Positions 24,033 to 38,769 of a stretch of DNA of 64,000 nt are shown piece after piece. Source of the stretch: Sphingopyxis sp. OAS728 (GTDB lineage Bacteria; Pseudomonadota; Alphaproteobacteria; Sphingomonadales; Sphingomonadaceae); the NCBI RefSeq assembly GCF_014873485.1, contig NZ_JADBDT010000001.1:4768501-4832500 (forward strand), given 5' to 3'. A program made the position numbers and the translations under genes. Every line of letters begins with the position of its first letter. Position 1 is the stretch's first letter. The notes under the pieces are model-generated. The model had not been told where the DNA came from, made no database searches, and saw only the letters and a list, made by a program, of their open reading frames with translations.

Positions 24033-24944
24033 GTGGCGCGATTGCCGATGCAGGATGAGTATCTGGGGACCGCGATCGACTTCGCGGCCCCCGTCGGCGA
24101 ACCCGCGTTGCTCGCGCCCGACAGCGTCCAGTGGCGCATCTACAAGAATCCGATCGCGCTCGGTATCGGCGGTATCGCGGCGGTGCTGCTCGAATTCGCC
24201 GAGCCGCGCATCCGGTCGGGGGTGTGGGATCATTCGACCTATAAGGCCGACCCGATCGGCCGTTCGCGCCGCACCGGGCTGGTCGCAATGCTAGCCTGCT
24301 ATGGGCCGGAGAGCAGCGCGAAAGCGGTCATTGGGCAGGTTAACAGGATGCACGGCAAGGTGAAGGGAGAGACGCCCGGCGGCACCCGATATCGCGCGCT
24401 CGATCCCGTGCTGCTCGACTGGGTTGCGGCAACCGCCTCCTACGGCTTCCTGATGGCTTACGACCGCTTCGTCCATCCGCTGAGCGACGCCGACAAGGAC
24501 CGCTTCATGGCCGACGGCGACGCGATCGGTCGCGAGTTCGGGGCGCGGCACACGCCGCCTACGGTTGCCGCCTTCATGGCGATGATGGACGCGCTCGAAC
24601 CCGGCTTCGAGCCGCACCCGATCATCTTCGAATTCCTCGATATTATCCAGTCCGGCCGCGCCGCGCCGGGCGTGCCGCGCTTCCTCCATCGCGCGATCGC
24701 GCGCGCCTCGGTGTCGCTGCTTCCGGCGCATATCCGGCAGCGGCTCGATCTTGGTTCGCGTTTCGACCTGACGCGCTTCGATCGCACGGCGCTCCGGTTC
24801 GCCGGCCGTCTCGCCGATCGCCATGTCGATCGTGCGGCGCCGCACTGCAAGGCAAGCGTTCGGCTTGGACTGCCCTATGACTTCCTGTTCAAATCGCGCG
24901 CCGAACAGCTGCGCCTACTGGCGGGCCTTTCAATCGCGGCCTAG
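24033..24944 (+). CDS. Oxygenase MpaB-family protein (DUF2236)
   Basis: A 303-residue helical protein with DUF2236 features: W(R)IYKNPIALGIGGIAAVLLEFAEPRIRSGVWDHS with a haem-region His, DPIGRSRRT, then HGKVKGETPGGTRYRALDPVLLDWV and FLMAYDRFVHPLSDADKDRF. The fold is related to latex-clearing protein and the fungal MpaB oxygenase; many members bind haem b. The start is GTG 24033 after AAAGGAGGAAGG. It is coupled to the TonB receptor, so it may cleave or oxidise the imported compound. Its stop codon overlaps that of the convergent D-aminoacylase-like gene. Confidence 0.8.
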   Translation: MARLPMQDEYLGTAIDFAAPVGEPALLAPDSVQWRIYKNPIALGIGGIAAVLLEFAEPRIRSGVWDHSTYKADPIGRSRRTGLVAMLACYGPESSAKAVIGQVNRMHGKVKGETPGGTRYRALDPVLLDWVAATASYGFLMAYDRFVHPLSDADKDRFMADGDAIGREFGARHTPPTVAAFMAMMDALEPGFEPHPIIFEFLDIIQSGRAAPGVPRFLHRAIARASVSLLPAHIRQRLDLGSRFDLTRFDRTALRFAGRLADRHVDRAAPHCKASVRLGLPYDFLFKSRAEQLRLLAGLSIAA

Positions 24945-26638
24945 CTGCAACGGTTCCAGCCCGCGCCGCGTACTGCACGCCCCGGCGTCGCGCCGCTATG
25001 CTCGCCGTTCCGCAGTACCCCGACGCCATTGACGAAGACGTCGCGCATCCCGACCGAATATTGGTGCGGTTTCTCAAAGGTCGAGCGGTCGCCGATCGTT
25101 GCCGGATCGAACACCACGACATCGGCATAATAGCCGGGCTTCAGCGCGCCGCGATCCTTGATGCCCAAATTGGTCGCGGGCAGGGTGGTGAGCCGGTACA
25201 CCGCCTGTTCGAGCGGAATCAGCTTCTCGTCACGAACATAGCGGCCGAGCAGCCGCGAGAAATTGCCATAGGTGCGGGGATGCGCGCCCGATTTCAGGAA
25301 GACGCCCTCGGTCGCCTGCGACGCAGCATCCGACCCGAAGCTCATCCACGGCAGCTGGATCTGCCTGCGCACATTATCTTCGGACATGAGGAAATAGACG
25401 GTGCCGACGCGCGAGCCATCCTCGACGACAAGGTCCATCGCGACTTCCTCGGCCGGTTTGCCGCGCATCGCCGCAACCTCGGCGAGCGTCTTGCCGGTCA
25501 GCGGCTTGAGTGCGTCATTCTTGAACCCCGACAGGATCATCTTGTCGGCGCCCGCGCCGAAATAGAGATTTTCCCAGTCGCTGCCCGGCTGTTTCATTTC
25601 GGCGGCAACCCGCGCACGGATCGCGGGGTCTTTCAGCCGCTTGATCCATTCCTCGAGCCCGCCCGCCTGCACCCAGGTCGGCATCGCCGCGTCGAGCCCC
25701 GTCGCGCCCGCGGTATAGGTGTACATGTCGGTCGTGATCTTCAGCCCCGCGGCGCGCGCGTCCTCGATCTTTTTCACGATCGTGTCGAGCTTGCCCCAGT
25801 TGCTGCGACCCGCCATTTTGAGGTGATAGATTTCGGCCGGCGCCCCCGAGCGGCGCGAAATGTCGATCAGCTCGTCGACGGCTTCCTCGATCCGGTCGCC
25901 TTCGGAGCGCATGTGACTGATATACATGCCGCCGCATTTGGCGGCCTCGCTGGTCAGCGCGACGAGCTCGTCGGTTTCGGCATAGGAGCCGGGAGCATAG
26001 ATGATCGAGCTGCCGACCCCCATCGCCCCATCGTTCATCGCCTGTCGCACCAGCGCACGCATGCGTGCGAGCTGCTCGGGGTTCGGATCGACATCGCCTT
26101 CGCCCAGTTCGTGGACGCGCACGGTCGCGGCGCCGACGAAGCTCGCGACATTGGTTGAAACGCCGCGTTTTTCCAGCCAGCCCAGATAGTCGCCCAGGCT
26201 GGTCCACTCGATCGGATATTTGATGTCGCCCTGTCGCTTAGTCTCCAGCGCCTTCATCGTGGCGTTCATCGGTCCCATCGACCAGCCTTCGCCCATCACT
26301 TCCAGCGTGACGCCCTGACGGATGTCGCTCTGGCTTTTGGGATCGGCGATCAGCGACTCGGTCGCCCAGCTCAGCATGTTGATGAACCCCGGCGCGACCG
26401 CCATGCCCTTCGCTGCGACTTCGGTCTTGGCGCTGCCATCGACCTTGCCGACCGCAACGATCCGGTCGTCCTTGATCGCGACATCGCCGACGACCGGCGC
26501 CTTGCCCGATCCGTCGTAGATCGTCCCGCCGCGGATGATCAGGTCATAGGTGGGCGCCTCAGCGGCCGCCGATGCGGACAGGAGCATCGAACTGCACAGC
26601 AGCACGAAGGAAGGTGCGAAGCGCCGCTGCGATGCCAT
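24941..26638 (-). CDS. N-acyl-D-amino-acid deacylase-like amidohydrolase (D-aminoacylase family), periplasmic
   Basis: A 565-residue amidohydrolase with a signal peptide (cleavage near SASAAAEA). The D-aminoacylase frame is clear: DLIIRGGTIYDGSGKAPVVGDVAIKDDRI, APGFIN, ISHMRSEGDRIEEAVDE, YHLKMAGRSNWGKL and a catalytic-type Asp in MSFGSDAA. D-aminoacylases release D-amino acids from N-acyl derivatives. Residues 87-91 read NMLSW where the family usually has DxHxH, so the first metal pair is missing, and GEG replaces the NCG cysteine loop. It lies 22 bases after the XRE-cupin gene with GGAGAGACAT before its ATG, and is their joint operon. Activity is uncertain. Confidence 0.85.
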   Translation of the reverse strand: MASQRRFAPSFVLLCSSMLLSASAAAEAPTYDLIIRGGTIYDGSGKAPVVGDVAIKDDRIVAVGKVDGSAKTEVAAKGMAVAPGFINMLSWATESLIADPKSQSDIRQGVTLEVMGEGWSMGPMNATMKALETKRQGDIKYPIEWTSLGDYLGWLEKRGVSTNVASFVGAATVRVHELGEGDVDPNPEQLARMRALVRQAMNDGAMGVGSSIIYAPGSYAETDELVALTSEAAKCGGMYISHMRSEGDRIEEAVDELIDISRRSGAPAEIYHLKMAGRSNWGKLDTIVKKIEDARAAGLKITTDMYTYTAGATGLDAAMPTWVQAGGLEEWIKRLKDPAIRARVAAEMKQPGSDWENLYFGAGADKMILSGFKNDALKPLTGKTLAEVAAMRGKPAEEVAMDLVVEDGSRVGTVYFLMSEDNVRRQIQLPWMSFGSDAASQATEGVFLKSGAHPRTYGNFSRLLGRYVRDEKLIPLEQAVYRLTTLPATNLGIKDRGALKPGYYADVVVFDPATIGDRSTFEKPHQYSVGMRDVFVNGVGVLRNGEHSGATPGRAVRGAGWNRCS

Positions 26639-37582: not shown

Positions 37583-38769
37583 AGCGTTTCGCCATATTGT
37601 TGACGGCCACCGCGCTCACGGCCTGTTCGACCGGAGGCGACAAGCCGAAAGAAGCGCAGGCGCCGCTGCACAGCCGGATGCTCGTGCTCGACACCCACCT
37701 CGACACGCCGCTCCATTTCGAGCGCGCGGGCTGGAGCTTCGCCGACCGTCATGCGCTCGCCGACGACATGGCGCAACTCGATATCCCGCGGATGAAGGAC
37801 GGCAATCTCGATGGCGGCTTTTTCGCCATCTACACCGATCAGGGGCCGTTGACGCCGAAGGGCTATGCCGATGCGCTCGCCTTTGCGCGAGGGCGGTCGG
37901 ACCTGATCGACAAGACCATTGCCGCGAACTCGGCCGCGATCGCACCGGCGCTGACTGCGGCCGACGCGGTGCGGCTGAACAGGGAAGGCAAGCTCATCGC
38001 CTTCAAATCGATGGAGAACAGCTATCCGCTCGGCGAGGACCTTTCGCTGCTGAAGGAATTTTACGACAAGGGGCTGCGCCTCGCGGGGCCGGTACATTCG
38101 AAGGACAATCAGTTTGCCGACAGCGCGACGGGCGAGGGGCGCTGGAAGGGGCTGAGCCCGCTCGGCAAGCAGTGGGTCGCGGAGATGAACCGCCTTGGCA
38201 TTGTCATCGACGCGAGCCATTCGTCCGATGCGGCATTCGACCAGATCCTGGCATTGTCCAAATATCCGATCCTGCTCTCGCATTCGAGCCTGCGTTCGGC
38301 TTTCGACCACCCGCGCAACCTCGACGAGGGACGGTTGAAGGCGCTCGCGGCGAAGGGCGGCGCGATGTGCATCTCGACGATCTTCATGTCGCCGATGAAC
38401 ATGTCGCCGGCGCGCGCCGATCTGTTCGGCAAATATGAGCGCATCGGCCAGATCACGCCCGCCGAGCAGGCCGATCTCAATCGCCAGTGGCGCGAACTCG
38501 ACAAGACCGAGAAGCTCTGGGCGGCCGATTTCGACGGCTATATGAAGATGGTGCTGCGCGCGATCGAGGTCGGCGGCGTCGACCATATCTGCTTCGGCGC
38601 CGACTGGGATGGCGGCGGCGGCCTGCCGGGCATCGAGGATATTTCGGCGCTGCCGAAGGTCACCGAACGGCTGAAGGCCGCGGGCTATTCGGATGCCGAT
38701 ATCGAAAAGATGTGGAGCGGGAATATCCTGCGCGTCTTGGCAGCACAGGGGAAACCGGTGACGGGTTAG
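37579..38769 (+). CDS. Membrane dipeptidase (M19), lipoprotein
   Basis: A 396-residue M19 dipeptidase with a lipoprotein signal (LTAC, Cys16) and the full metal site: D38-T-H40-L-D42, Glu in SMENSYPLG, His in DASHSSD, His in LSHSSLRS and Asp in GADWDGGGG. It hydrolyses dipeptides, including those with a C-terminal D-residue, at the outer face of a membrane. The start is a GTG overlapping the previous stop codon (GTGA). It is the last gene of the operon and, unlike the dipeptidase at 30493, looks catalytically competent. Confidence 0.92.
   Translation: MKRFAILLTATALTACSTGGDKPKEAQAPLHSRMLVLDTHLDTPLHFERAGWSFADRHALADDMAQLDIPRMKDGNLDGGFFAIYTDQGPLTPKGYADALAFARGRSDLIDKTIAANSAAIAPALTAADAVRLNREGKLIAFKSMENSYPLGEDLSLLKEFYDKGLRLAGPVHSKDNQFADSATGEGRWKGLSPLGKQWVAEMNRLGIVIDASHSSDAAFDQILALSKYPILLSHSSLRSAFDHPRNLDEGRLKALAAKGGAMCISTIFMSPMNMSPARADLFGKYERIGQITPAEQADLNRQWRELDKTEKLWAADFDGYMKMVLRAIEVGGVDHICFGADWDGGGGLPGIEDISALPKVTERLKAAGYSDADIEKMWSGNILRVLAAQGKPVTG

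Follow-up and report, generated by a model that had tools for sequence, protein, structure and literature searches.

The window analysed here, a stretch of 64,000 nucleotides (G000:C1:4768501-4832500) from the 4.92-Mb genome of Sphingopyxis sp. OAS728, carries between positions 24941 and 38769 a cluster encoding homologs of the D-glutamate (D-Glu) proteins DgcN and DgcA, together with peptidase-family proteins, a TonB-dependent outer-membrane receptor (TBDR), a YkvI-family permease and an XRE-cupin regulator. The genes that an earlier note had named were all confirmed within this single stretch by Pfam and NCBIfam, and in the case of YkvI by the names that database sources give to its relatives; start codons were picked from the translations. 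Two genes lie on the reverse strand, namely a secreted amidohydrolase resembling D-aminoacylases and N-acyl-D-Glu deacylases (24941..26638; PF07969, Amidohydro_3) and the gene for the regulator (26661..27296; HTH_3 and Cupin_2), divergent from the main operon. The forward-strand genes encode SH1, a serine peptidase of family S12 (27427..29406; PF00144) with a signal peptide; an enolase-superfamily (MR_MLE) DgcA-like racemase/epimerase (29406..30410); M19a, of the membrane-dipeptidase family (30493..31635; PF01244); the TonB receptor (31640..33817; PF00593 and PF07715, reaching no NCBIfam cut-off); a DgcN-like N-acetyltransferase of DUF1611 (33838..34878; PF17396 and PF07755); the YkvI-family inner-membrane permease (34866..36014); SH2, a secreted S12 hydrolase with a DUF3471 domain (36011..37582; PF00144 and PF11954); and M19b, a canonical membrane dipeptidase (37579..38769; PF01244). 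The arrangement is operon-like: the stop codon of SH1 shares its final base with the start of the DgcA gene, and the frames of YkvI, SH2 and M19b each overlap the end of the gene before. On inspection of the translations, export signals were found at the N-terminus of SH1, SH2, M19a (Tat-like), M19b (lipoprotein-like), the TonB receptor and the D-aminoacylase-like protein, and none in DgcN, DgcA or the regulator.

A survey of sphingomonad and other neighborhoods revealed that the locus is a conserved unit, more than a chance neighborhood. Among 78 DgcN-anchored loci, a biased choice since they are the best-scoring DgcN similarity matches, and with neighbor classes assigned by best tblastn match, not by orthology, we found an S12 hydrolase in 74, a TonB receptor in 66, an XRE-cupin regulator in 64, DgcA in 61, YkvI in 59 and an M19 protein in 56. 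Regulator, S12 hydrolase, DgcA and YkvI occurred together in 51 of the 78, and in 39 M19 and the TonB receptor were present as well. When the search was anchored on YkvI instead, the 27 loci of other genomes (all that were fetched) contained DgcN and a TonB receptor in 23 cases each, S12 and regulator in 21 each, DgcA in 19 and M19 in 16, with regulator, S12, DgcA, DgcN and YkvI together in 18. Gene content differs between loci, and gene order is kept across genera and into Gammaproteobacteria. The nearest loci by DgcN similarity search belong to Sphingopyxis, and in a DgcN tree the loci of Lysobacter, Arenimonas, Rudaea, Dyella, Rhodanobacter and Steroidobacter and one Chthoniobacterales metagenome-assembled contig nest among sphingomonad rows with modest support (94/88; the tree label 'gamma_other' includes four sphingomonad rows). 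In a phylum-wide sample a YkvI match was detected in 5 of 398 genomes, including the source genome and a congener; one genome from a different family of the phylum carried the order TBDR-DgcN-DgcA-YkvI-AmH3-SH-M19a-SH at 27-52% identity, with no match to the regulator, and two weak YkvI matches lay without DUF1611.

The permease is the genomic partner of DgcN. The protein itself has no Pfam or NCBIfam match at E<=0.001; some database sources call its relatives 'YkvI family membrane protein', and hydropathy alone gives nine or ten hydrophobic segments, two of them overlapping, so that the YkvI-like permease of the earlier note stands as a polytopic membrane protein under a name taken from those sources. 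Within a family sample of 149 genomes, 23 carried YkvI and 37 carried DUF1611 (36 of them above the cut-off), with 21 genomes carrying both. Of the 29 YkvI genes, 25 lay downstream of a DUF1611 domain in the same orientation, at a distance of 27-135 bases. In 52 of the 59 DgcN-anchored loci that have YkvI, its gene came immediately after that of DgcN.

The claim that the cluster encodes DgcN and DgcA homologs stands for family membership, but not at the level of equivalogs, as the window DgcN scores 444.3 bits with NF041892 (cut-off 480) and the window DgcA 355.7 bits with NF042940 (cut-off 400). Four DUF1611 genes are present in the source genome, and the pair passing both cut-offs sits at another locus, L005 (DgcN 510.1, DgcA 422.2); the window was thus rejected as the site of the genome's canonical D-Glu pathway. 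Because both window proteins miss cut-offs that both L005 copies pass, the window pair is, judged by its sequences, a divergent paralogous class and not the canonical pair. The copies at locus L006 are likewise below the cut-offs (DgcN 460.4, DgcA 375.1), as is the DgcN of L007 (438.0). L005 (G000:C1:3706500-3726400) has the layout LysR-dgcN-dgcA-SDF together with an HxH-bearing D-aminoacylase-like gene; L006 (G000:C1:4711700-4731600) is a further locus of the window's kind, referred to below as type 2, with an alpha/beta hydrolase and an Amidohydro_1 protein, and L007 (G000:C1:3985500-4005400) is another, with an S15 peptidase and without DgcA. A lone homolog of DgcA and dipeptide epimerases, L010 (G000:C1:3463454-3464422), falls slightly short of both NCBIfam cut-offs with the respective models (393.8 bits, cut-off 400; 306.2 bits, cut-off 343) and keeps the SRG loop described below.

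The same division runs through the family sample, in which 62 rows, after removal of two weak rows and a split piece, gave 59 DUF1611 genes, and 57 of these were classed by best match as type 1 (21) or type 2 (36), leaving out the window's own gene and one on contig G085:C35. All 21 type 1 genes had DgcA1 within 7 kb; over the same distance 19 had a LysR-type gene, 18 a D-aminoacylase like that of L005, 15 an SDF symporter, 12 a TonB receptor with TBDR_big as its best match and 4 an S12 gene, and none had YkvI, XRE or M19. The 36 type 2 genes had S12 in 30, a TonB receptor in 29, YkvI in 25, DgcA2 and XRE in 24 each, M19 in 17, DgcA1 in one and LysR in none. Type 1 formed one clade in the DgcN tree (100/99; 20 rows), from which rows with a stop or with 250 residues or fewer, one of the 21 type 1 rows, had been left out.

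The window DgcN fits the DUF1611 pattern, with N- and C-terminal domains and a P-loop of the form GTDC..GK, and has a solved relative in 7xrj; its P-loop reads GTDCALGKKYT vs GTDCSVGKMYT in L005. DgcA retains the catalytic lysines and the metal ligands of the enolase superfamily, as KxK (KVK), D, E, D and K (NIKLDK). It also retains a DLD motif (DLDGP), the DxD motif at the end of the barrel being a mark of L-Ala-D/L-Glu epimerases; this motif does not discriminate, because the canonical DgcA of L005 has it too, and it was discarded as a separator of epimerase from racemase. Against the L-Ala-D/L-Glu epimerase model PRK15129 the protein scores 222.4 bits, below the cut-off of 343. The lid loops read SGHVFTE and GEGAGVYYLGDD, the L005 counterparts being SRGVRTA and GECVPYPRYGE. 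The SRG/ARG 20s loop, which we took as our own criterion from L005, L010, 4gfi and 1jpd, is absent from the window DgcA, and SRG was found in none of the 62 cluster DgcA rows in which this loop aligned (three of 65 rows, with a gap there, were excluded), two rows reading SGR. L-Ala-D/L-Glu epimerases use an Arg of the 20s loop to hold the side chain of Glu; on that footing, the residue handled by the cluster enzymes may not be Glu.

The S12 family is marked by the motifs SxxK, YxN and HxG, all of which are present in SH1 and, as STGK, YDN and HGGG, in SH2, bearing out the two serine hydrolases of the earlier note. SH1 has four C-terminal membrane helices after its S12 domain, predicted from hydropathy, and its solved relatives are the Pab87-type 2qmi, the alkaline D-peptidase 4y7p and ClbP (3o3v/4e6x). 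Membrane dipeptidases of family M19 bind their metals through HxD, Glu, His, His and Asp. The two dipeptidases of the earlier note fared differently: M19b holds all the ligands (THLD, SMEN, ASHS, LSHS, ADWD) and matches the dipeptidase 2rag at 405 bits, whereas M19a has neither HxD nor the bridging Glu (VIDMLAP, MGIQNAE), its closest solved relative, 2i5g, likewise having QNA at the aligned Glu site. Similarly, the D-aminoacylase-like protein, with solved relatives 1rjp and 3gip, belongs to PF07969 as proposed, but does not have the complete subtype V site, which passages of PMC12017989 define by a Cys/His/His site, a catalytic Asp and an HxH pair, a His-to-Ala change at either HxH position abolishing activity in a relative. 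The window protein is a sequence relative of these subtype V D-aminoacylases and N-acyl-D-Glu deacylases, as far as those passages describe them, and shares their two His ligands and the catalytic Asp; it differs in that GEG replaces the Cys motif and LSWATE the HxH pair. Its own relatives without HxH and with GEG for the Cys ligand fall into two main sequence classes, LSWATE and MDQSG. In M19a and in the D-aminoacylase-like protein alike, the site may have been rebuilt, or the role may be other than hydrolysis.

Evidence on the supply of substrate came from the clusters of relatives. A POT oligopeptide transporter was the next recognised gene after DgcA, by similarity clustering, in 14 of the 78 loci (L041, L044, L050, L052, L062, L066, L068, L069, L072, L077, L083, L084, L086 and L089), confirmed with PF00854 for 12 of them and starting at most 60 bases from the DgcA match in nine, the ones measured; in the family sample, POT matches were detected in 11 of 60 loci, two at less than 40% identity. 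No POT is present in the window locus, the sole over-cut-off match of the genome being elsewhere. Thirty further in-cluster open reading frames (ORFs) of relatives were scanned; most encoded POT (12) or proteins of the beta-lactamase fold, and there was one example each of an S9 peptidase, a glutamate/leucine-type dehydrogenase, a class-V aminotransferase, a D-serine-dehydratase-type protein and other families. S15 peptidases were found in 8 of the 78 loci. As peptidoglycan-specific proteins, the 30 ORFs yielded one weak match to S13 (D-Ala-D-Ala carboxypeptidase) and no other, and neither these ORFs nor the window genes scanned included an enzyme for the gamma-D-Glu bond (NlpC/P60, M14), an amidase or a lytic enzyme. 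The earlier proposal that neighboring genes would supply D-Glu from cell-wall or other D-peptides is strengthened as to peptides by the POT genes in relatives' clusters, and weakened as to a dedicated peptidoglycan locus, for which no gamma-D-Glu cutter was found in the genes scanned. The description of a 'complete' D-glutamate and peptidoglycan locus is not supported as it stands, given a divergent DgcN/DgcA pair, a canonical pair at L005, the different DgcA lid loops, two altered metal sites and the missing gamma-D-Glu cutter.

The XRE-cupin regulator, whose HTH_3 and Cupin_2 domains agree with the earlier assignment, is a distant PuuR relative (46.3 bits with the PuuR model, cut-off 211). 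Between its gene and SH1 lies a putative promoter/operator of 33 bp, TTTGACAATTTTCTAATCAGGATCATTATGTCC (27303..27335, forward strand), recognised by its recurrence at regulator starts. Of 81 regulator upstream regions, counting the one in the window, 63 matched it at no fewer than 22 of its 33 positions, a level reached by 1 of 4050 dinucleotide shuffles; so did 34 of the 52 regions that belong to a regulator of less than 80% identity. Conservation is strong in Sphingopyxis and near relatives, and the element is recognisable in Lysobacter and Steroidobacter. A 28-bp core of the element, searched with up to three mismatches, was present in 7 of the 149 family genomes, once each and always inside this locus, and a reversed-pattern control gave no match in the same genomes. 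An operator also controlling other genes of the genome was discarded, the site being unique in this genome at up to three mismatches; weaker sites were not sought. The element contains a sigma-70-like promoter (TTGACA, 16, CATTAT), promoter-like sites in the region being no more numerous than in shuffles. We infer that the XRE-cupin protein binds the 33-bp element, a conserved promoter/operator that would belong to the locus as its own switch.

Taken together, we consider the DgcN-DgcA D-amino-acid pathway to exist here in a second form, 'type 2', that is fed by peptides, a reading to which we give a probability of about 55%. The TonB receptor would import small peptides with D-residues, which the two S12 peptidases, one of them ClbP-like and anchored in the inner membrane, and M19b would cut in the periplasm, releasing D-amino acids or L-X-D-X dipeptides. 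For this step the sequence shows the families, the catalytic residues and the export signals, and the substrates are presumed. YkvI, observed as the partner of DgcN, would then bring the D-amino acid inward to DgcN for N-acetylation, and DgcA, whose catalytic residues are in place, would convert the N-acetyl product, and perhaps intact dipeptides too, to usable L-forms by inversion at the alpha-carbon, the operon being switched by the XRE-cupin protein through the conserved and unique 33-bp element. The likeliest substrate is predicted to be D-Glu, another acidic D-residue or its amide. Peptides with D-residues in general are favored as the source because the genes that mark type 2 encode a permease and exported proteins of peptidase families, with POT in relatives and the relatives of SH1 pointing the same way; peptidoglycan fragments would be one possible source of several. 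D-amino acids are, according to passages of PMC12363236, an important component of the dissolved organic matter that is recalcitrant. Such a cluster, coupling uptake, trimming and inversion, would give soil and water bacteria one route to eat them in peptide-bound form. It also offers a testable function for YkvI permeases, and suggests that DUF1611 and DgcA matches should not all be taken as free D-Glu catabolism. More speculatively, and with considerable doubt on our side, type 2 DgcN and YkvI could be an import-and-acetylate pair that makes the orphan YkvI family D-amino-acid importers, with a changed residue specificity in type 2 DgcA and with the peptidases, among them two amidohydrolases whose metal sites have been rebuilt, acting as a general sink for the D-residues of natural peptides under one dedicated, strongly conserved operator.

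Several observations weigh against the peptide-fed form of the pathway. No DgcA match was found in 17 of the 78 DgcN-anchored loci, some of these loci being short, and the missed cut-offs of DgcN and DgcA together with the lost SRG lid motif suggest that the residue may not be Glu. In the midpoint-rooted tree two type 2 rows, L151 and L157, group next to type 1 at an open fork (83/95), so that type 2 was not shown to form one clade. The S12 and M19 families include esterases and L,L-peptidases too, and the accessory S15 and S9 peptidases of some relatives would fit ordinary peptides equally. As for the switch, 18 of the 81 regulator upstream regions fell below 22/33, and, with up to three mismatches allowed, 14 of the 21 sampled genomes that carry both DgcN and YkvI have no copy of the 28-bp core.

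A chance neighborhood of unrelated peptidase and D-amino-acid genes is extremely improbable: gene content does vary from locus to locus and, to our knowledge, each gene family of the cluster is widespread on its own, but the co-occurrence counts at both kinds of anchored loci already contradict it, as do the gene order kept into Gammaproteobacteria, the YkvI-DgcN pairing in 25 of 29 cases and an operator core matched solely at this locus. A locus dedicated to D-Glu from peptidoglycan fragments, such as L-Ala-gamma-D-Glu or muropeptides, seems unlikely to us. It would draw on the distant relationship of the S12 proteins to AmpH (84.6 and 79.5 bits, cut-off 266) and DD-peptidases, on M19b as a full dipeptidase that could split an L-X-D-Glu dipeptide, on DgcN and DgcA being nearest to D-Glu enzymes, and on the S13 match and a penicillin-binding protein in the flank of four loci; the absence of NlpC/P60, M14, amidase and lytic enzymes from the genes scanned, the altered DgcA lid loops and the locus passing the D-Glu cut-offs elsewhere in the genome (L005) argue against it.

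If DgcA were mainly a dipeptide epimerase, L-X-D-X dipeptides would enter the cytosol and be converted to L,L-dipeptides for ordinary peptidases, with DgcN-YkvI taking free D-residues in parallel; the POT genes next to DgcA in 14 of 78 loci, the DLD motif and the L007-type loci having DgcN without DgcA agree with this, yet DLD also occurs in the canonical L005 DgcA, the window locus has no POT, and DgcA scores higher with the DgcA model (355.7 bits) than with that of the epimerase (222.4 bits); we regard this explanation as rather doubtful. A somewhat better case, although we would still hold it only tentatively, can be made for a target D-residue other than Glu, for instance Asp, Asn, Gln or some neutral residue, set free from peptides of nonribosomal, cyanobacterial or aged-protein origin. 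The universal absence of SRG from the aligned cluster DgcA rows, the different 50s loop, the DgcN P-loop (CALGKK vs CSVGKM) and the likeness of SH1 to ClbP, which removes a D-Asn group, all favor it. The MlrC family of microcystin-type degradation (PF07364) had no match in the source genome, in a search that matched no control genome either.

The DgcN-DgcA pathway for D-Glu catabolism was reportedly described by Yu et al. in 2023 in the ISME J. The window locus resembles it in having a DUF1611 N-acetyltransferase and an enolase-superfamily racemase in one operon, and differs in that its type has XRE-cupin, YkvI, S12, M19 and a TonB receptor, with both enzymes below their cut-offs, and type 1 loci of the family have the LysR-type gene (19/21), the L005-kind D-aminoacylase (18/21) and the SDF symporter (15/21). 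Murein-peptide routes through L-Ala-D/L-Glu epimerases, such as E. coli YcjG (1jpd) and B. subtilis YkfB, share the enolase fold, the KxK/K catalytic pair, the DLD motif and, in some relatives of the window locus, a peptide transporter beside the enzyme, but no gamma-D-Glu endopeptidase was found in the genes scanned, the epimerase score stays at 222.4 bits vs 343, and the lid loops are different. ClbP-type D-amino-acid peptidases of family S12 are membrane-anchored, and SH1 has the same order of S12 domain and C-terminal membrane helices in a setting that looks catabolic instead of a biosynthetic cluster. A literature search found no description of the cluster in titles or abstract starts among the matches listed, and the records listed for YkvI did not contain that name. 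Published work mentions dgcN in marine settings, in the passages concerned, and one paper on a Rhodobacteraceae strain that grows on D-Glu and peptidoglycan lists genes for a D-Glu N-acetyltransferase and an N-acetyl-D-Glu racemase, with no cluster of this kind in the passages concerned. So far as this search reached, the locus is an undescribed variant of the DgcN-DgcA pathway, and the suggestion that its coupling of uptake across the outer membrane to exported peptidases and a pair of the DgcN/DgcA type is new was sustained among those matches, now for a conserved unit with a conserved promoter element of its own.

Downstream, a sigma-54 response regulator, a dCache histidine kinase and an SDF dicarboxylate symporter adjoin the locus (38913-43609), the kinase and the symporter accompanying it in its closest relatives alone (L012, L014). 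The downstream two-component system, the SDF symporter and the large TonB receptor were not retained as parts of the unit (SDF in 2 and histidine kinase in 3 of the 78 loci). Upstream lie a TonB receptor and then a protein of the MPAB/rubber-oxygenase family (21565-24944), MPAB being common to some Sphingopyxis loci.

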